Positions 2,866 to 58,785 of a stretch of 64,000 nt of DNA are shown piece by piece. Position numbers and translations under genes: made by a program. Source of the stretch: Actinomycetota bacterium (lineage in GTDB: Bacteria; Actinomycetota; Geothermincolia; Geothermincolales; RBG-13-55-18); assembly GCA_014360655.1 (NCBI GenBank), contig JACIXC010000004.1:124001-188000 (forward strand), read 5' to 3'. Each line of letters starts with the position of its first letter. Positions within the stretch are counted from its first letter, which is position 1. The notes beneath the pieces were generated by a model that saw only the letters and a list, made by a program, of their open reading frames with translations, did not search any database and was not told the DNA's origin.

Positions 2866-3267
2866 TTGGCCGAGAAGAAGATCAGCAAGGAGGACATCCT
2901 GGAGGCCATCGACTCCATGACCGTGCTCGAGCTCAACGAGCTGGTAAAGGCCCTGGAGGAGAAGTACGGCGTCACTGCCGCTGCACCGGTGGCGGTGGCG
3001 GCGGTCGGGGCGGGAGCGCCCGCCGCCGGCGAGGGACCCGCGGAAGAGGCGGAGAAGACGGAGTTCGACGTCGTTCTTCTCGCGGCCGGCGACCGCAAGG
3101 TGCAGGTCATCAAGGCGGTGAAGGAGATCACGGGTATGGGTCTCAAGGAGGCGAAGGCCCTCGTGGACGAGTCTCCCAAGCCGGTCAAGGAAAAGGTTTC
3201 GCGTGACGAGGCGGAGCGCGTGGCTGAGATGCTGCGCGACGCGGGGGCGCAGGTAGAGATAAAGTAA
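2866..3267 (+). CDS. rplL: 50S ribosomal protein L7/L12
   Basis: L7/L12 recruits translation factors to the ribosome. The 133-residue protein has the N-terminal dimerisation domain ([26 protein letters not shown]), an Ala/Val/Gly-rich hinge at about residues 38-60, and the factor-binding C-terminal domain ([23 protein letters not shown]). The start is TTG at 2866 preceded by GGAGGTG. The usual rplL-rpoB neighbourhood is interrupted by nearly 1 kb of repeats. Confidence 0.97.
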
Positions 3268-3310
3268 AGGCCGGGCCGGGGCTCGTTCTCGCTCTGCGGC
3301 GCGTTTCTTT

Positions 3311-4083
3311 TTCCTTCTTCCGGCGGCCGGGCCGCCGGGTAACGGTCTCGCTCGCAGGCTCGCTGCGACCGACCCTGTAGTTCCCCGGGCTGGTTGGGTG
3401 GAAATCCGTCCTTTTTCCGGCGGCCGGGCCGCCGGGTAACGGTCTCGCTCGCAGGCTCGCTGCGACCGACCCGGTCGTTCCCGGCCTTGGTGGGTGGGAA
3501 TCGGGAGGCCGCTTGCGATGTCCCTCGCCCGACCCCCGGACCCGGCCTTGGTGGGTGCATAATCAGTCCTTCTTCCGGCGGCCGGGCCGCCGGGTAACGG
3601 TCTCGCTCGGCGCCGCGTTCCTTTCTCGTAAATCCGAGACCTTAGGAAAGGCGTCCTCGCTGCGACCGACCCTGTAGTTCCCCGGGCTGGTTGGGTGGGA
3701 ATCGGGAGGCCGCTTGCGATGTCCCTCGCCCGACCCCCGGACCCGGCCTTGGTGGGTGGTTCAGTAAAGGCTCGCTGCGACCGACCCGGTCGTTCCCGGC
3801 CTTGGTGGGTGGGAATCGGGAGGCCGCTTGCGATGTCCCTCGCCCGACCCCAGGACCCGGCCTTGGTGGGTGCATAATCAGTCCTTCTTCCGGCGGCCGG
3901 GCCGCCGGGTAACGGTCTCGCTCGCTGGCTCGCTGCGACCGACCCGGTCGTTCCCGGCCTTGGTGGGTGGGAATCGGGAGGCCGCTTGCGATGTCCCTCG
4001 CCCGACCCCCGGACCCGGCCTTGGTGGGTGGTTCAGTAAAGGCTCGCTGCGACCGACCCGGTCGTTCCCGGCCTTGGTGGTTG
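3311..4083 (+). repeat. Mosaic of three interspersed GC-rich repeat units (A, B, C), locus 1
   Basis: This gene-free stretch between rplL and rpoB is almost entirely repeats. Unit A contains the hairpin CGGCGGCCGGGCCGCCG followed by GGTAACGGTCTCGCTCG, with cores at 3321, 3418, 3576 and 3891. Unit B is about 38 bp starting CTCGCTGCGACCGACC, at about 3359 (degenerate), 3456, 3655 (degenerate), 3771, 3929 and 4043. Unit C is 61 bp starting GGGAATCGGGAGGCCGC, at 3496, 3697, 3811 and 3969. Units occur in differing orders (A-B-C, C-B), and one A-B join carries a roughly 45-bp variant insert (3610-3654). Short open frames through the array translate to repetitive peptides and I do not count them as genes. 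Function is unknown. Confidence 0.9.
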
Positions 4084-4117
4084 CTTATACGTCTTTATAC
4101 CAAAAAGAAGGATGCTG

Positions 4118-4195
4118 TATAATCCGGCTAGATGATATGGGCAGAAACAGGGGATGCACCGTTGTTTGACAGGATTGTCACTTATATCATAGTAT
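4118..4195 (+). promoter_or_regulatory. AT-rich promoter tract upstream of rpoB
   Basis: After the repeats, base composition turns sharply AT-rich. It contains a perfect TATAAT (4118-4123) with only a weak -35 (TTATAC, 4095), and TTGACA (4166-4171) 18 bases before TAGTAT (4190-4195). The second pair would start transcription about 55 bases before the rpoB start codon. This suggests rpoBC has its own promoter or promoters rather than relying on read-through from rplL. Confidence 0.6.
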
Positions 4196-4257
4196 AGTGT
4201 TTTGCGTATATGTGAGGGTGTTTTTTGCTTCAAGCGGGAAAAGGAGTGAGTGAAACA

Positions 4258-7200
4258 GTGGGTGTGAACGGTGGATTGCGGGTGCGCAAGAACTTCGCCA
4301 AGATACCCGAAATACTCGATGTACCCAACCTGATCGACATCCAGAGGAAATCCTACGAGTGGTTCCGCAACGAGGGGCTGCGGGAGGTCTTCGACGACAT
4401 CTCCCCCATTGAGGACTACGGCGGCAACATGGCCGTGGAGTTCGGAGAGCACAAGTGGCATGAGCCCAAGCACGACGTGGACGAGTGCAAGGAAAAGGAC
4501 ATGACCTACTCCTGCCCCCTCTTCGTCACCGTGCGCTTCATCAACCGCGAAACGGGCGAGATAAAGGAGCAGGAGGTCTTCATGGGGGAGTTCCCCCTAA
4601 TGACGGACAAGGGCACCTTCATCATCAACGGAACGGAAAGGGTGGTGGTCTCGCAGCTGGTCCGCTCCCCCGGCGTTTACTTCAGCAAGGAGCTGGACAA
4701 GGCTACGGACAAGGAGCTCTACTTCGCCAAGATCATCCCCTCCCGCGGCGCATGGCTGGAGTTCGAGACCGACAAGCGCGACGTCATCGGGGTGAGGATC
4801 GACCGCAAGCGCCGTCAGCCCGCAACCGTGCTCCTGCGCGCCATGGGGTACGAGGACGAGGACCAGATACTCTCCCTCTTCGACGGCTCCCCCCTGATAG
4901 AGGCCACCCTGGAGAGGGACCATACCTCCAACCGCGAGGAAGCCCTCATGGACATATACCGCAAGCTGCGCCCGGGGGAGCCGCCCACCGCGGACTCGGC
5001 CTTCAGCCTGCTGGAGAACCTCTTCTTCAACCGCAAGCGTTACGACCTGGCCAGGGTGGGGCGTTACAAGCTCAATAAGAAGCTGGGCCTCGACGTCCCC
5101 CTGTCGGTGACCGTGCTCACCTTCGAGGACATCGTCGAGACCATCCGCTACCTCCTGCGCATCATGCCGGGGGACATCGAGGAAGTGGACGACATAGACC
5201 ATTTCGGCAACCGTCGCGTGCGCTCTGTGGGGGAACTCATCCAGAACCAGGTGAGGATCGGGCTCTCCCGCATGGAGCGGGTGGTGAAGGAGCGCATGAC
5301 CACCCAGGACGCGGAGGCCATCACCCCGCAGAACCTCATCAACATCCGTCCCGTGGTGGCGGCCATCAAGGAGTTCTTCGGGTCCAGCCAGCTCTCGCAG
5401 TTCATGGACCAGACCAACCCCCTGGCGGGCCTCACCCACAAGAGGCGCCTTTCCGCGCTGGGACCCGGGGGCCTGTCGCGGGAGAGGGCCGGCTTCGAGG
5501 TGCGTGACGTGCACCCCTCCCACTACGGGCGCATGTGTCCCATCGAGACGCCGGAAGGTCCCAACATCGGGCTCATCGGCTCCCTGGCCACCTTTGCGAG
5601 GGTCAACGAGTTCGGCTTTATCGAGACCCCCTATCGCAGGGTGGTGAAGGGAAGGGTCACCGACGAGATAGTCTATCTCACCGCCGACGAGGAGGAGAAG
5701 TACGTCATAGCCCAGGCCAACGCGCCCATCGACAAGCGGGGGCGCTTCCTGAGCCCCACCATCCTCTGCCGCACGAAGGAGGCGGTGAAGGCGGTGCACC
5801 CGGAAGAGGTGGACTACATGGACGTCTCCCCGCGGCAGATCGTCTCCGTGGCCACCGCCCTCATCCCCTTCCTGGAGCACGATGACGCCAACCGCGCCCT
5901 CATGGGCTCCAACATGCAGCGGCAGGCGGTGCCGCTGTTGCGCTCGGAAGCCCCCCTCATCGGGACCGGGATGGAGTACCGGGCCGCCAAGGACACCGGC
6001 GACGTGCTCTGCGCGCGTGCGGCTGGGATCGTGACCTACGTGGACGCCAACCGCATCGAGATCAAGCGCAAGGACGGGACGGTGGACGTCTACAAGGTGG
6101 CCAAGTTCCGCCGCTCCAACCAGGGGACCTGCGTGAACCAGAAGCCCATCGTGGACGAGGGCGACCGCGTGGAGGAAGGCCAGGTGATAGCCGACGGCCC
6201 CTGCACGGACCACGGGGAGCTGGCGCTGGGCAGGAACCTCCTGGTGGCCTTCATGCCCTGGGAGGGCTATAACTACGAGGACGCCATCATCGTCTCCGAG
6301 CGCATGGTCTACGACGACGTGCTTTCCTCCATACACATAGAGGAACACGAGACCGACGCCCGCGACACCAAGCTGGGGCCGGAGGAGATCACGCGGGATA
6401 TACCCAACGTGAGCGAGGACATGCTCAAGGACCTCGACGAGAGGGGAATCATCCGGGTGGGGGCGGAGGTGAGCCCCGGCGATATCCTGGTGGGCAAGGT
6501 CACCCCCAAGGGGGAGACGGAACTCACCGCCGAGGAAAGGCTGCTGCGGGCCATCTTCGGCGAGAAGGCCAGGGAGGTGCGCAACACCTCGCTCAAGGTG
6601 CCCCACGGCGAATCGGGCAAGGTCATCGACGTCAAGGTGTTCTCGCGGGACGCCGGGGACGAGCTGCAGCCGGGCGTCAACGAGATGGTACGCGTCTACG
6701 TGGCGCAGGTGCGCAAGATATCCGACGGGGACAAGCTGGCCGGCCGCCACGGCAACAAGGGGGTCATATCCAAGATCCTCCCCGTGGAGGACATGCCCTT
6801 CCTCGCGGACGGCACCCCCGTGGACATCGTGCTCAATCCCCTGGGGGTGCCATCGCGCATGAACATCGGGCAGATACTGGAGACCCACCTGGGTTGGGCC
6901 GCCCACGAGGGATGGCCCAAGAAGGGGAAGAACAAGGCGGACGGGCCGGTATACGTGGCCACCCCGGTCTTCGACGGCGCCAGGGAGGGCGAGATCGAGG
7001 AGGCCCTGCGGGAAGCCGGCCTTCCCGAGGACGGCAAGGCCATCGTCTACGACGGCATAACCGGGGAGCCCTTCCACCAGCCCATAACCGTGGGATACAT
7101 CTACATGATGAAGCTGTTGCACCTGGTGGACGACAAGATCCACGCCCGCTCCACGGGGCCCTATTCCCTGGTCACCCAGCAGCCCCTGGGCGGCAAGGCC

Positions 7201-7587
7201 CAGTTCGGGGGCCAGCGTTTCGGGGAGATGGAGGTCTGGGCCCTGGAGGCCTACGGGTCCGCCTACACCCTGCAGGAGCTGCTCACCGTGAAGTCCGACG
7301 ACGTCATGGGCAGGGTGAAGGTCTACGAGGCCATCGTCAAGGGGGAGAACATCCCGGAGCCGGGGATACCGGAGTCCTTCAAGGTGCTGGTCAAGGAGAT
7401 GCAGGCGCTCTGCCTCGACGTTGAGGTGCTCTCCGAGACGGGCGAGGAGATCGAGATCAAGGAGACGGATGAAGACCTCCTGCGCACCGCCGAGGACCTG
7501 GGCATAGACCTGCGCACGGCGTCGGCGGCGCTGCTCTCCACCCGCAGCGAGGAAGAGCTCTTCGAGGAGAGGCCCGAGGAGTTCTGA
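4258..7587 (+). CDS. rpoB: DNA-directed RNA polymerase subunit beta
   Basis: The beta subunit forms half of the RNAP active-site cleft. I prefer the GTG at 4258 (1109 residues), which follows AAGGAG; an in-frame TTG at 4225 would add 11 residues. The rifampicin-pocket region reads [12 protein letters not shown] followed by [14 protein letters not shown], with Asp, His and Ser at the usual resistance positions, so it looks rifampicin-sensitive. Also visible are [19 protein letters not shown], the [10 protein letters not shown] active-site loop, and the C-terminal [23 protein letters not shown]. rpoC follows 55 bases later. Confidence 0.98.
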
Positions 7588-7642
7588 GGCGCGGTGAAGG
7601 ATAGGGATGTCGGCAGGAAAGAACACGCAAGGAGGTTGACCC

Positions 7643-11530
<3,888 letters not shown>

Positions 11531-53055: not shown

Positions 53056-54171
53056 TTAGGACCGCCCTCGGTGGGCTTGATAGAAGGAGCGGACGGCGGC
53101 GATGACCGCGTCCTGCTCGTCGTCCGTGAGGTAGGGGTAGAGGGGGAGGGAGAGCACCTCGCGGGCCGCGCGCTCGGCCGCCGGGCAGGGGCGCGAGGAG
53201 CCCTCCCGGAAGGGGGGCTGCAGGTGCAGGGGCAGGGGATAGTGCACGGCGGTCTCCACCCCGGCGCGGGCGAGGTGTTCGCGCAGCCCCTCCCGTTCCC
53301 GGCAGAGCACCACGAAGAGGTGGAAGCAGTGCTCGTCTCCCCCCGTCCAAGGCGGCAGGCCCAGGGGAAGGTCACGCAGCCCCTCCAGGTAGCGCCGGGC
53401 CAGTTCCCTGCGGCGCCGGTTCCACTCCTCGAGCCGCCGCAGCTTCGTGCGCAAGAACGCCGCCTGCAACTCGTCCAGGCGGCTGTTCAGCCCCACCTCC
53501 TGCAAGGTGTCGCGATCCCTCCTCCCGTAGTCGCGAAGCATGCGCAGGCGCCGTGCGAGGGAGGGGTCACCGGTCACCACCAGGCCCCCATCCCCGTATG
53601 CGCCGAGGTTCTTGGTGGGGTAGAAGCTGAAGCAGCCCGCCGCGCCCCAGGAGCCCGCCATCCTCCCCTCCAGGGAGGCGCCGTGGGCCTGCGCGCAGTC
53701 CTCCACCACCACGAGGCCACGGCGTGAGGCGAGCTCCCGCAGGCCCGGCATGTCCGCCATCCTCCCGTAGAGATGCACGGGGATGAGGAAACGCGTGCGC
53801 GGCGTGAGCCTTTCCTCCACGCTCGCAGGGTCGATGGTCAGGGTCCCCGGATCCACGTCCGCGAAGACGGGCCGCGCGCCGCAGAGGGAAACGGCCACCG
53901 CGGTGGGCGGCGCGGTGAGGGCGGGGACGATGACCTCGTCTCCCGCTCCCGCTCCCAGCGCCCTGAGGGAGAGGAGCAGGGCATCGGTTCCCGAGGCCAC
54001 GCCCACCCCGTGGGCCATCCCGCAGTATCTGGAAAATTCTTCCTCGAAGGCCAGGACCTCCTCGCCAAGGACGTGGCGTCCGCGACGCAGGAAGTCTTCC
54101 AGGTCACCCCGGAGCTCCTCCTCCAACTCCCGGTCCTGGCGGGTGAGGTCGAGGAAGGGTACGCGCCTCAC
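53056..54171 (-). CDS. DegT/DnrJ/EryC1-type sugar aminotransferase
   Basis: These PLP enzymes transaminate keto-sugar nucleotides. The 371-residue protein shows VASGTDALLLSLRALG, VIVPALTAPPTAVAV, the PLP-phosphate and Asp region VVVEDCAQAHGA, and the internal aldimine lysine in SFYPTKNLGAYGDGG. A distal YGRRDRDTLQEVGLNSRLDELQAAFL segment is canonical. Its start overlaps the upstream epimerase stop (ATGA), making it the last gene of a three-gene reverse-strand operon. The exact sugar is unknown. Confidence 0.92.
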   Translation of the reverse strand: MRRVPFLDLTRQDRELEEELRGDLEDFLRRGRHVLGEEVLAFEEEFSRYCGMAHGVGVASGTDALLLSLRALGAGAGDEVIVPALTAPPTAVAVSLCGARPVFADVDPGTLTIDPASVEERLTPRTRFLIPVHLYGRMADMPGLRELASRRGLVVVEDCAQAHGASLEGRMAGSWGAAGCFSFYPTKNLGAYGDGGLVVTGDPSLARRLRMLRDYGRRDRDTLQEVGLNSRLDELQAAFLRTKLRRLEEWNRRRRELARRYLEGLRDLPLGLPPWTGGDEHCFHLFVVLCREREGLREHLARAGVETAVHYPLPLHLQPPFREGSSRPCPAAERAAREVLSLPLYPYLTDDEQDAVIAAVRSFYQAHRGRS

Positions 54172-55214
54172 GACGGCGCAAGCCCCTTGCGGTCCAGCAC
54201 CACTTTGCCCCGCGGGGGGTGGAAGTAGTGGCTGCCGTGCTCACGGTAGAAGGAGACCGTCTCCTCGAGGGCGTCGCGGAAATCACGGCGCGGCCTCCAG
54301 CCCAGGGTCTCCTGAAGGAGGGAGGTGTCGAGGATGATATGACCCGGCTCCACGCAGAGGCGCTCGATGGGGAAGGGGATGCATCTCCAGGAACTGCCGG
54401 TCAGCTCGCACACCGCGGCGGCCGCCTCGGCCACGGAGAGGCTCGTTCCCGATGCCAGGTTGAAGGCCTTGCCTTCGCAGTCGGGGCACGCCGCCGCCAG
54501 CAGGATGGCCTCCACCGCGTCGTCCACGTAGAGGAAGTCCCTTTTCTGCTCCCCGTTCCCGAAGACGCGTATCTCCTCCCCGCAGAGCCCCTGCCTGATG
54601 AACCAGTTGAGAAAGCCCTGCCCGTCGTGGAGCATCTGGTGGCGGGGCCCGAAGATGTTGCTCAGCCGCAGGGACGTGTAGCGCAGGCGCCCCTGCTCGT
54701 GGAATACGCGGTGGTACTCCTCCACGGCCGTCTTGTGCACACCGTTGATGTCCACCGGCCTCAGGGGGTGCTCCTCGTCCACGGGGAGATAAAGCGGGCT
54801 CCCGTACTGGCTGCGGGAACCGGTGTAGACCACGCGGGCCTGGGGGCTCAGCTCGCCCAGGGCGCAGAGGAAGCGGAGCTGGCTCGCGCAGTTCCTTTCC
54901 AGGTCCTGGATGGGGTTATGCAGGCTCCCCACGTGACTGATGCAGGCGGCGAGGTTGAAGACCACCTCCTGGTCCACGAGGAAGCTGGATATCTCGTCCA
55001 CGGCGCCGATGTCCGCCACCACCAGGTTGACCTCATCGAGCACGCCCTTCAGGTTGAAGAGGTTCGCGCCCTGGTCGGGAAAGCAGGCGTCGATGATGGT
55101 GACCGCCGCGCCCAGGCGCACCAGCTCGCGCGCGAGGCTGCTGCCCACGAACCCCGCGCCGCCCGTCACCAGCACCCGGCGGCCGCGGTAGAACGCCTCG
55201 ATCTTTCCATCCAT
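54168..55214 (-). CDS. NAD-dependent sugar-nucleotide epimerase/dehydratase (extended SDR)
   Basis: The 348-residue protein has the Rossmann motif VTGGAGFVGSSLAREL, DACFPDQG and a typical C-terminal FNLASGTSLSVAEAA. The expected catalytic YxxxK tyrosine is replaced: the segment reads PVDINGVHKTAVEEYH, with Asn where Tyr normally sits. I recall similar wording in a subgroup of epimerase-like proteins, so it may be a subfamily trait. The ATG is one base after the stop of the YfhO-GT2 gene. Confidence 0.88.
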   Translation of the reverse strand: MDGKIEAFYRGRRVLVTGGAGFVGSSLARELVRLGAAVTIIDACFPDQGANLFNLKGVLDEVNLVVADIGAVDEISSFLVDQEVVFNLAACISHVGSLHNPIQDLERNCASQLRFLCALGELSPQARVVYTGSRSQYGSPLYLPVDEEHPLRPVDINGVHKTAVEEYHRVFHEQGRLRYTSLRLSNIFGPRHQMLHDGQGFLNWFIRQGLCGEEIRVFGNGEQKRDFLYVDDAVEAILLAAACPDCEGKAFNLASGTSLSVAEAAAAVCELTGSSWRCIPFPIERLCVEPGHIILDTSLLQETLGWRPRRDFRDALEETVSFYREHGSHYFHPPRGKVVLDRKGLAPS

Positions 55215-55215
55215 C

Positions 55216-58200
55216 TCAGAGTCCCCCTTTCCTTGCCAGCCTCCACCATAATGACGCCAAACCGGCCACCATGGCAAGCAGGTTTTTAAGGCGGAAGAAC
55301 TGGCTCCTGCCCTCGCGGCGCGGGAGGTGGCGCACGGGCGTCTCGGCGAAGCGCGCGCCCCGCGCCTGCAGTCCCTTTACCAGCTCCACGCAGATGGACC
55401 CGCCTTCCGAACGCAGGTCGAGGCTCCTGGCCAGGTCTCCCCGCATGAGCCGGAAGTCGCAGTCCACGTCCCGAATGGGCACCAGGAAGAGGCGCCGCAC
55501 GAAGAAATTGTACGCCTTGCCCAGGAGCACGCGATACCAGGGATCGCTGCGGCTCTCCTTGTAGCCGTTGACGACGTCGGCGGTCCCGCTGAGGGCGTGC
55601 AGCCGGCGCAGGTCAGCCACGTCGTACTGGCCGTCGCTGTCGGTGTAGAAGACCCATTGCTTGGCGGACGTCTTGATGCCGCTGCGCAGGGCAGCGCCGT
55701 AGCCGCGGTTGCGGTCGTGGCGCACCACTCTCACCTCGGGATAGGCTGCCGCGAGGGAGTCGATGACCGCCCCGGAAGCGTCGGAGCTGCCGTCGTCCAC
55801 GATGATCACCTCGTAGTCGTCGCAGAGCTCGCGCAGCACCTCGAGGGCTCCGGTCACCACCTCCCCTATGGTGGCGGAATCGTTGTAACAGGGGAAGAAG
55901 GCGCTGATGCTCGTGGCCTGCGGCGGGGGGAGGGAGGGCGCCTCGCGGGCTTGCCCGCGTGCTCGTGCGCGCTCCCGCAGCCCCACCAGGAGGAGGAGGG
56001 CCAGGAAAGCGAACAGGCTGAGGATGGAGACCGCCGCACCCACCGCCAGGCCCGGCTGCCGGTAGTCGAGGGTCACCAGGTGCTCGCCCGCCGGGAGGTA
56101 GAGGGCGGTCAGGAAGCCGTAGGCGGAGAAGAGCCCGCAGGGCCGGCCGTCCACCCTCGCTTCCCAACCCGGGAGGTAGTCCAGCGAGAGGACGAGCACG
56201 CAGTCGCCGCCGCTCGTGGTGCGGAAGGAAAGGTGGTCGCCGCCTTCCTCCACGCGATCCACCCTCACCTCTCCCTGCGGCGCCCGCAGCGAGGATATGC
56301 GCTCACGCAGCGCGGGGTCGATCTCCTGCGCCAGCAGGACGGCATTTCCCTCCCGGAAGCCGTCCTCCCAGGCTATGTCCACGGCTTCCCTCCAGTCCTC
56401 CGCCCACGTGAATTCCCAGGCGGGGAATGCGGGGTAGAGGCTTTCCTCCAGCGTGTAGACGGCGTGCCTACCGTCGCTGTATGCGGCAGGCCAGGGCGTG
56501 AGGGGAAATCCGCGACCGTACTCGTCCAACATGCTCACGGCGAGCAGGCGCGTTCCCTCAAGGCTCTCCTGGCAGGCGGTGGTGACCACCAGTTGCTCGC
56601 TCCTCCTCAACCTGCACGGAACCCTTACCTCGACGGCCTCGCGTCCCCTGCCGTAACCGGGAGAGCGGAAGCCTATGCGGTCGATGGTGGGCGGGTATTC
56701 GTTGTACATCACGGTCAGGGCGCATTCCTCCTCCCCGGCCTCCTTTTCCAGGAGCAGCACGGGCAGCCGCACGACGCGTCCGCCGCTCAGGCAGTCGAGC
56801 TTGAGGTAGAGCTTGCCGTGCGCGTCGCGCTCGAGGATGCGGCCGTCCAGGAGGAAACGCAGCTCCTTTCCCGTGAGGGAAGCATCGCAGGCGTAGGAAG
56901 ACGATCCCAGGCCGCCCGCGATGGAAAACGGGAACCCGAAGTCGTAGGGCACCCCCCTTACGCGCACCAGGTCGGCGTAGAGGGCCTCCACCCCCAGGAG
57001 CGCGAAGGCGTTCCGGTCCGGTTGCCGGTCCAGGTAGCCGAGAAAACGGTCGAGGCGGGCCGGGGGGATGGTCGAGAAGCCGAAGGCGTCGGGTATGGAG
57101 TAGGGGAGGAGCTGGTTTGACGAGAGGGCGAACTCCCCGCGGTTGATGCCGGGCTCCTTGAGCAACGCCGCCCTCCCGCCCTCCAGGTCCTCCAGGACGT
57201 TGATGACCGCCGGCCGGCTCTCTGCCCTGTTCCTGGGAACGGGCTTGAGCACCAGCGATGCGAAGACGAAGGTGTCCAGGAAGGCGACGAGGACCGCCAC
57301 GCATACCGTGACGCGTCTCGGCCCGCCCTTTCTGCGCGTGTCGGAGAGGAGGAGGAAAAATATGCCGAGCAGGGCGAGGGGAACCAGGAATTCCGTCCTC
57401 CAGGTGGTGAAGTAGTCGCAGAGGGAGGAGAGCACGCGTTCCGTGGGGGCCTTCACTCCCGTCAGAAGCGGCCTGGCCACCAGGGCCGCGAAGTCCCTAA
57501 AACCCAGGAGGTTACAACGATAAAGCACCGTCAGCAGCGCCAGGCACGCCGTCACTATGCCGGCCGCCAGGGCCCAGCCGCGCACCAGGCGCGAGCGCGC
57601 TTCCCCATCCAGCCTTCCCTGGCGCCAGCGGTCCAGCCCCATGGCTCCCAGGAGTAGGACGGAGAGGTTGCAGGTGAGCAGAAAGCGGCTGGGTCCCTTG
57701 AGCACGTGGAATCCCGGCAGGCGGTGCAGGAGCGGCCAGAGCAGGCCTTGATTGCCGAGGCTCAACAGGAGGGAAACGACCGCCGTCCAGAAGAAGAAGG
57801 CGGCCGGCCAGGCGCGCTCCCTTCGCAGCGCGGCGGGGGCGAAGAGCAGGGGGAGTATACCCACGTAACCGTAGGTCTCCTCGAAGGTCCAGGCTCCCAG
57901 GTATCCTCCCTGCGCTATGCCCCGCCCGAAGGAGCGGGGCAGCACCAGACCCAAGAGCTGGAGGGCGGGAAGGTTGCCGGTGTTGGCGAGCGAGCCGGAG
58001 AGGCCCCCCGCGCGGTAGGAGTTCCGTACCAGGAAATAACTGGGAAGATTCTGCGCCATGCCCAGCCCCGCCCCCAGGGCGAAGGCGGCGGCCAGCCCCC
58101 CGAGGTCGGCCAGGAGGCCCCTGCCGCCCTCGCGTCTCCCGCGGTGATGAAAGATGACGTAGAAGAGCGCCATGACGCCCTCCATGAGCGGGACCATGAG

Positions 58201-58785
58201 GAAGCCGCCCAGGAACTGCAGGCCGAGCACCCCCCCGGTCAGCAGGAAGAAGGAGAACCTCGCCTCGCCGAGCGCCCTCTCCAGGAGGTAGAGGAAGAGG
58301 GGCATCCAGGCGGCGGTGGCCACCGCGTTGGGGTGGACGAGGTGCGCGAGGAGGAACCCGCCCAGCATGAAGGGAAGGGCGGCGAAGAGGGAGGCAGGGC
58401 GGCTCAGCCCGAGACGGCGGCAGTAGAGGTAGAGGAAGCCGCCGCCGAGCAGGTAGTGGAAGACCAGGGACCAGGTGAACCCCGTGAGCGAAGGCAGGAG
58501 GAAGAAGAGCGGGTTAAAAGGATAGAAGAGCCCCATCTCGCTGTCGGCGAATAGGGGAAACCCGCAGTAGATGCCCGGGCACCAGAAGGAAAGGCCGCCC
58601 GTGCGCAGCGCGTGCGAGAGGTAGGTCCAGTTGGGGAGGTAATAGGTCTTTATGTCGGAGAACCACGGCACCCGCTTCAGGAGGATCATGGATTGGAAGA
58701 AGAGGAAGACGGCCAGGAACAGGAGGAGCAGGGGCCACGCCCTTTTCCCTTCCTCCCTTACCGGGGTGCGGACAACGTCTTCCAT
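55216..58785 (-). CDS. YfhO-like multipass membrane protein fused to a GT2 glycosyltransferase
   Basis: The 1189-residue protein has roughly ten to twelve hydrophobic segments in residues 15-520, including FADSEMGLFYPFNPLFF, the wording of YfhO/GT-C-like membrane proteins. A large extracytoplasmic domain covers about 530-910, and a further transmembrane segment lies near 920-945. From about residue 957 a family-2 glycosyltransferase follows (SAFFPCYNDSATIGEVV, IVDDGSSD, YTDSDGQYD, DVDCDFRLM), closest in style to dolichyl/polyprenyl-phosphate sugar synthases. It leads the reverse-strand operon. Substrate unknown. Confidence 0.85.
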   Translation of the reverse strand: MEDVVRTPVREEGKRAWPLLLLFLAVFLFFQSMILLKRVPWFSDIKTYYLPNWTYLSHALRTGGLSFWCPGIYCGFPLFADSEMGLFYPFNPLFFLLPSLTGFTWSLVFHYLLGGGFLYLYCRRLGLSRPASLFAALPFMLGGFLLAHLVHPNAVATAAWMPLFLYLLERALGEARFSFFLLTGGVLGLQFLGGFLMVPLMEGVMALFYVIFHHRGRREGGRGLLADLGGLAAAFALGAGLGMAQNLPSYFLVRNSYRAGGLSGSLANTGNLPALQLLGLVLPRSFGRGIAQGGYLGAWTFEETYGYVGILPLLFAPAALRRERAWPAAFFFWTAVVSLLLSLGNQGLLWPLLHRLPGFHVLKGPSRFLLTCNLSVLLLGAMGLDRWRQGRLDGEARSRLVRGWALAAGIVTACLALLTVLYRCNLLGFRDFAALVARPLLTGVKAPTERVLSSLCDYFTTWRTEFLVPLALLGIFFLLLSDTRRKGGPRRVTVCVAVLVAFLDTFVFASLVLKPVPRNRAESRPAVINVLEDLEGGRAALLKEPGINRGEFALSSNQLLPYSIPDAFGFSTIPPARLDRFLGYLDRQPDRNAFALLGVEALYADLVRVRGVPYDFGFPFSIAGGLGSSSYACDASLTGKELRFLLDGRILERDAHGKLYLKLDCLSGGRVVRLPVLLLEKEAGEEECALTVMYNEYPPTIDRIGFRSPGYGRGREAVEVRVPCRLRRSEQLVVTTACQESLEGTRLLAVSMLDEYGRGFPLTPWPAAYSDGRHAVYTLEESLYPAFPAWEFTWAEDWREAVDIAWEDGFREGNAVLLAQEIDPALRERISSLRAPQGEVRVDRVEEGGDHLSFRTTSGGDCVLVLSLDYLPGWEARVDGRPCGLFSAYGFLTALYLPAGEHLVTLDYRQPGLAVGAAVSILSLFAFLALLLLVGLRERARARGQAREAPSLPPPQATSISAFFPCYNDSATIGEVVTGALEVLRELCDDYEVIIVDDGSSDASGAVIDSLAAAYPEVRVVRHDRNRGYGAALRSGIKTSAKQWVFYTDSDGQYDVADLRRLHALSGTADVVNGYKESRSDPWYRVLLGKAYNFFVRRLFLVPIRDVDCDFRLMRGDLARSLDLRSEGGSICVELVKGLQARGARFAETPVRHLPRREGRSQFFRLKNLLAMVAGLASLWWRLARKGGL

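Follow-up and report, generated by a model that had tools for sequence, protein, structure and literature searches.

A YfhO-GT2 fusion protein conserved in an actinobacterial lineage and its relation to a wider GT2-SDR-DegT cassette

The fusion gene and its conservation

The DNA analysed here (the window) is a stretch of 64,000 nucleotides from an Actinomycetota bacterium (GCA_014360655.1, contig JACIXC010000004.1, positions 124,001 to 188,000). Its minus strand carries a three-gene operon, the first gene of which (55216..58785) codes in a single frame from ATG to TGA for a protein of 1189 amino acids, joining a YfhO-type membrane transferase of the GT-C kind to a glycosyltransferase family 2 (GT2) domain of the polyprenyl-phosphate sugar transferase type. 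Genes for an extended short-chain dehydrogenase/reductase (SDR) and a DegT-type sugar aminotransferase follow, and this arrangement, [YfhO-GT2]-SDR-DegT, is kept in synteny across the taxonomic order to which the organism belongs. The original prediction, which had placed a YfhO-like membrane protein and a polyprenyl-phosphate-type GT2 in one protein with a junction at about residue 950, agrees with the Pfam search, as both PF09586 (YfhO; E-value 7e-15, 54.9 bits against a curated cut-off of 28.5) and PF00535 (Glycos_transf_2; E-value 6e-23, 82 bits against a cut-off of 23.3) were identified. The GT-C half, delimited by PF09586, a structural model and Foldseek, takes up residues ~17-947 (55945..58737, minus strand), while the GT2 half, assigned by PF00535 and by sequence and fold, takes up residues 957-1189 (55219..55917, minus strand). 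The linker between them (residues 948-956) shows a dip of the predicted local distance difference test score (pLDDT) below 50 at residues 948-951, and the GC content by codon position stays in phase and unbroken across it. The best partial NCBIfam matches of the protein include ArnC, PpgS, PgfS and PgfM2, those to the PgfS and PgfM2 models being far below their cut-offs.

The fusion is present as a single stop-free frame in 12 of the 18 genomes of the order, with the proteins of the 11 relatives being 36-79% identical to that of the window, and also in a genome of another order within the same class (G093), giving 13 assemblies in all. The named relatives are Candidatus Solincola and Candidatus Geothermincola metagenome-assembled genomes (MAGs) of the Actinomycetota. 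In G010 the gene is present and interrupted by contig ends alone, in G005 and G006 it lies in adjoining broken frames, in G002 the GT2 and the YfhO-type gene are on separate contigs, and G008 and G012 have weak GT2 paralogues only.

That the fusion arose as an artefact of annotation or assembly, or that a pair of genes was taken as one, could be suspected from the separate genes of homologues outside the lineage and from the broken frames of G005 and G006. However, the unbroken frame in 13 assemblies, at the degree of divergence given above, and a coding signal that runs on through the junction speak against this, and because independent assemblies hold the same frame the fusion is not an assembly error. 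Such an artefact is scarcely credible and is already refuted by the conservation; by the survey of homologues proposed with the original prediction, the fusion is a genuine one, shared within a single actinobacterial lineage (G093 in addition to the 12 genomes of the order). A tree of the GT2 sequences places G005 and G006 beside the fused family, inside the lineage. As this tree is unrooted and the fusion label needs three changes on it, it leaves unsettled whether the fusion or the splitting came first. Long frames in G291, G152 and G160, which were considered as further YfhO-GT2 fusions in the phylum, do not contain this GT2.

Predicted fold, topology and active sites

An AlphaFold2 model of the fusion, for which window and locus proteins were aligned in 28 rows, has a mean pLDDT of 83.7 and a predicted template modelling score of 0.73. 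In it, the GT-C half consists of a multi-helix membrane domain, a soluble beta-rich domain (residues ~599-908) and a final long helix (913-947). With Foldseek against the PDB, this half matches ArnT (5f15, target TM-score 0.50) and, weakly and across the whole chain, AftD (6w98). Membrane helices, an outer soluble domain and an acidic residue in the first outer loop are all present, and the earlier doubt that the N-terminal half might lack GT-C structure is answered by these matches. The GT2 half resembles ArnC (target-normalised TM-score ~0.6), DPM synthase and GtrB by fold, and the same three are found by sequence search, with ArnC being the closest.

The acidic residue is Asp44 (58654..58656, minus strand), which lies in a D-x3-YY-x-P motif of the first extracellular loop and is invariant in 12/12 fusions of the order and in every separate YfhO protein aligned. 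It is the likely catalytic base, a role assigned by analogy with GT-C enzymes. In the GT2 half, the conserved metal/nucleotide-sugar motif D1049-x-D1051 (55633..55641, minus strand) was identified, each of the two aspartates being conserved in 95% or more of the 90 GT2 sequences aligned.

The N-terminus is positively charged before the first transmembrane helix, with Asp44 following that helix, while the last membrane helix, at about 918-936 by hydropathy, is followed by the arginine-rich RERARARGQAR. From this distribution of charge around the first and last helices, the GT2 domain is predicted to be cytosolic and Asp44 to be outside. No hydrophobic segment was detected by hydropathy beyond residue 936, so the GT2 half is without C-terminal transmembrane helices of the ArnC/GtrB kind, which are not common to all polyprenyl-phosphate GT2 members. 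As the GT2 itself lacks a membrane helix, it may be anchored through the GT-C half to which it is fused. It had also been proposed that one polypeptide both charges the lipid carrier and uses it. Both enzyme halves are indeed present, but their active sites are on opposite faces of the membrane by topology, which means that a flip of the lipid-linked sugar is still required. That the fusion itself favours flipping is speculation.

The operon partners and the wider cassette

The SDR gene (54168..55214, minus strand; 348 amino acids; PF01370, E-value 9e-44) begins 1 nt past the stop codon of the fusion, and the DegT/DnrJ/EryC1/StrS aminotransferase gene (53056..54171, minus strand; 371 amino acids; PF01041, E-value 3e-114) overlaps the SDR stop codon by 4 nt (GTGA), a gap and an overlap that amount to operon coupling in the window. 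Scans of the operon for promoters and terminators had no decisive outcome. A methyltransferase gene ends the operon in G093 and G001, while G003 has the methyltransferase and lacks the SDR.

The DegT protein has a pyridoxal phosphate-binding lysine, Lys187 (53611..53613, minus strand), in an SFYPTK motif, identified by alignment and present in 59/59 aligned family members, which points to an aminotransferase and not a dehydratase. Among named PDB entries, it matches DesV-type 2oga, QdtB and WbpE best, with ArnB and PseC-type entries ranking well below them. The three best-matching enzymes act at C3. As the protein is nearest to transaminases of 3-amino sugars, the amino group would most likely be placed at C3, which is a lead and not a result. 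The aminosugar earlier suggested for this system is supported by the DegT gene and the operon, with the chemistry remaining predicted.

The SDR (model pLDDT 87) has the fold of sugar epimerases/dehydratases, with Foldseek matches to Mth375 and TM0509, and the glycine motif of its Rossmann-fold NAD-binding site is intact, T17-G18...G21-x-x-G24 being invariant in the SDR alignment. An alignment of relatives shows N157-x3-K161 (54732..54746, minus strand) in place of the Y-x3-K of SDR enzymes. All 64 sequences in which the position of the catalytic tyrosine is occupied carry Asn, among them relatives of several phyla, and the lysine is retained in 57. The original prediction of a downstream epimerase and aminotransferase holds for the SDR and DegT genes, by Pfam and synteny, but the name epimerase was rejected, and such an activity is not to be assumed as the catalytic Tyr is missing. 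An invariant Arg stands beside Ser/Thr ([ST]R motif). Among the sugar-nucleotide SDR dehydratases and GalE whose active-site motifs are listed in a review, the sole Tyr-less enzymes, WbpM and PglF, carry Met (TDK...Mx3K), and no row of that review is matched by the Asn form with Arg next to Ser/Thr (PMC8987622). Like PglF/WbpM, the protein is an extended SDR that has retained the Lys and has another residue instead of the catalytic Tyr; unlike them, it has Asn with the Arg-containing motif instead of Met with TDK. The Asn-for-Tyr SDRs are probably a separate class of sugar SDRs.

A scan of 84,980 species genomes was made with the fusion alignment, and the best 80 matches were kept, so that the locus counts describe the closest relatives. 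Beyond the fused lineage, the matches are to the GT2 only (about 43-55% identity), as stand-alone genes in Chloroflexota, Acidobacteriota, Verrucomicrobiota, Wallbacteria, Eisenbacteria, Curtissbacteria, some Actinomycetota and one Pseudomonadota MAG. With strict thresholds, and with many contigs ending nearby, both SDR and DegT genes lie near the GT2 in 39 of 64 stand-alone loci, DegT alone in 8, SDR alone in 8 and neither in 9; when the thresholds were relaxed and the methyltransferase was included, no more than 2 loci were without any partner. This methyltransferase, a class I S-adenosylmethionine-dependent enzyme of one cluster, is near the GT2 in 39/64 loci. The gene order GT2-SDR-DegT is found again and again in several phyla, with the genes very closely spaced or slightly overlapping, and a separate yfhO gene lies directly after DegT in loci L093, L096, L101, L108 and L126. 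As the unfused halves adjoin elsewhere, the functional link of GT2 and YfhO is independently supported. The conserved unit is larger than the fusion, namely a GT2-SDR-DegT-(methyltransferase)-(GT-C) cassette of which the fusion is a lineage-specific variant.

Some cassettes differ in their membrane proteins. In an Anaerolineae MAG (L077:7944-12182, plus strand), a protein of 1412 amino acids within a GT2-SDR-DegT cassette joins a YfhO-type to a PMT_2-type GT-C and is thus a double GT-C fusion. In Chloroflexota cassettes L087, L107 and L112 (cluster 21), a membrane protein of ~640 amino acids follows the SDR, being a PMT_2-type GT-C in L087, and from these it seems that either a YfhO-type or a PMT_2-type protein can take the place of the GT-C partner. 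Chloroflexota cassettes L068, L070 and L072 have a recurrent upstream ATPase-like protein of ~540 amino acids and an opposite-strand protein of ~620 amino acids, neither with an evident link to sugars.

Proposed role and comparison with known systems

The locus resembles the Arn system (ArnB, ArnC, ArnT), as the GT2 half is close to ArnC by sequence and among the best matches by fold, the GT-C half folds like ArnT, and the DegT aminotransferase and SDR would supply an amino sugar. ArnC has C-terminal transmembrane helices. Unlike the Arn system, where ArnC and ArnT are separate proteins, the GT2 here is without such helices, and the DegT protein is nearer to 3-amino transaminases than to ArnB. 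No formyltransferase/decarboxylase (ArnA-type) or deformylase (ArnD-type) is present in the three-gene operon, the genome not having been searched for either.

The CsbB-GtcA-YfhO and GtlA-GtcA-GtlB systems of teichoic acid glycosylation likewise combine a polyprenyl-phosphate GT2 with a YfhO-family transferase acting outside (PMC7389260). Here, however, GT2 and YfhO are one polypeptide, sugar-modifying enzymes lie in the operon and no GtrA/GtcA flippase was found in the 18 genomes of the order, so that both the separate GT2 and GT-C genes and the flippase of three-component GtrA-GtrB-GT-C systems are missing. Surface proteins of Streptococcus mutans are modified by the pgf operon (pgfS-pgfM1-pgfE-pgfM2), which codes for a GT2, an epimerase and two membrane proteins (PMC5856776). 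Genes of the same kinds, for a GT2, a YfhO-family membrane transferase and an SDR, occur in this operon, but the matches to the PgfS and PgfM2 models are weak, as given above, and the SDR is without the catalytic Tyr; in the pgf operon the genes are separate, there is no aminotransferase and PgfE is annotated as UDP-glucose 4-epimerase. In mycobacteria, PpgS and Rv3779 are also an actinobacterial GT2 and a membrane transferase adding an amino sugar outside, in this case galactosamine on arabinogalactan, although from separate genes and with polyprenyl-P-GalNAc as the donor (PMC3485146). In Ppm1 of M. tuberculosis, too, a membrane domain and a polyprenyl-phosphate GT2 form one protein, and related species have unfused orthologs (PMC3485146). 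The fused partner of Ppm1 differs, being a six-helix membrane domain. This domain is an apolipoprotein N-acyltransferase and is not known to use the lipid-linked sugar.

By analogy with these systems, the locus probably, though by no means certainly, encodes a compact Arn/Pgf-like surface-glycosylation unit by which an amino sugar would be made, loaded on polyprenyl phosphate and transferred outside. We infer its reactions, sugar, flip and acceptor from the observed domains, folds, operon, conservation, synteny and motif states, with the three-component logic (PMC7389260), the pgf operon (PMC5856776) and the PpgS/Rv3779 route (PMC3485146) as models. A nucleotide-linked amino sugar would be made in the cytosol with the help of the SDR and the DegT transaminase, and the C-terminal GT2 would move this sugar to polyprenyl phosphate on the inner side of the membrane. 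After the lipid-linked sugar had been flipped by a protein other than GtrA, the N-terminal GT-C would pass the sugar on, outside, to an acceptor at the surface (a glycan, a lipid or a protein), Asp44 being the likely base. In most other phyla, the GT2 is encoded by its own gene within the cassette, frequently together with the methyltransferase, which may methylate the amino sugar.

A number of points weigh against this reading. The YfhO Pfam model is covered only in part, chiefly over its C-terminal domain, and the broken or split genes of G002, G005 and G006 show that covalent joining is not strictly required. GtrA (PF04138), the only flippase family covered by the search, was not detected in the window genome, nor elsewhere in the order (0/18 genomes), while 7/14 control genomes have it. 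Without the Y-x3-K of extended SDRs, normal epimerase/dehydratase chemistry may fail. The operon contains no dehydratase to supply the keto sugar needed by the DegT enzyme (the genome was not searched for one) and no acceptor gene was linked to it, nor was experimental work on its function found in the literature.

The sugar might instead be attached to proteins, in Pgf-like O-glycosylation and not on polysaccharide or lipid, and need not be an amino sugar. In S. mutans, surface proteins are the target of the YfhO-family PgfM1/PgfM2 acting with PgfS (a GT2) and PgfE (an epimerase) (PMC5856776), PgfS and PgfM2 are among the partial NCBIfam matches, and in the window genome a second YfhO gene adjoins a TMEM260-like gene annotated as protein O-mannosyltransferase. 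However, the conservation of DegT beside the GT2 in several phyla favours an amino sugar and other YfhO enzymes of known acceptor act on teichoic acids (PMC7389260), which makes this account possible but rather unlikely. It is less likely still that the SDR and DegT products go to other glycosyltransferases, with the fusion adding a common hexose and having these neighbors merely through a shared general sugar operon. The loci with DegT only, SDR only or neither, several of them with contigs ending close by, and the absence of the SDR from G003 would fit such an arrangement, whereas the repeated finding of a tightly packed or overlapping GT2-SDR-DegT row in several phyla, and the translational coupling in the window, argue against it. 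The surface-glycosylation unit could be extended, tentatively and with more doubt than confidence, to an uncharacterised pathway spread over several phyla, in which a 3-amino sugar, perhaps N-methylated, would be carried on a lipid and a new class of Tyr-less (Asn-x3-Lys) sugar SDR would be used, together with a Solincola/Geothermincola fusion that would hand the lipid-linked sugar over locally without GtrA.

The flip of polyprenyl phosphate between loading inside and use outside is an old open step of surface glycosylation, and a natural covalent fusion in GtrA-less genomes offers one protein for testing coupled synthesis, flipping and transfer. The cassette is widespread and apparently unstudied, no description of either the YfhO-GT2 fusion or the GT2-SDR-DegT-methyltransferase cassette being found in the open-access literature (subscription papers were not covered). 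It provides a ready gene set for seeking a new surface amino sugar in poorly studied phyla, as well as an SDR family with an unusual active site.

The window genome also has a second locus of related genes (L051, G000:C1:262000-278000, at 3157-10324), which holds a TMEM260-like membrane transferase and a stand-alone YfhO protein of 773 amino acids, with a cassette-type methyltransferase and a GT2 on the opposite strand. This is possibly a protein O-glycosylation locus holding the methyltransferase that is absent from the window operon.

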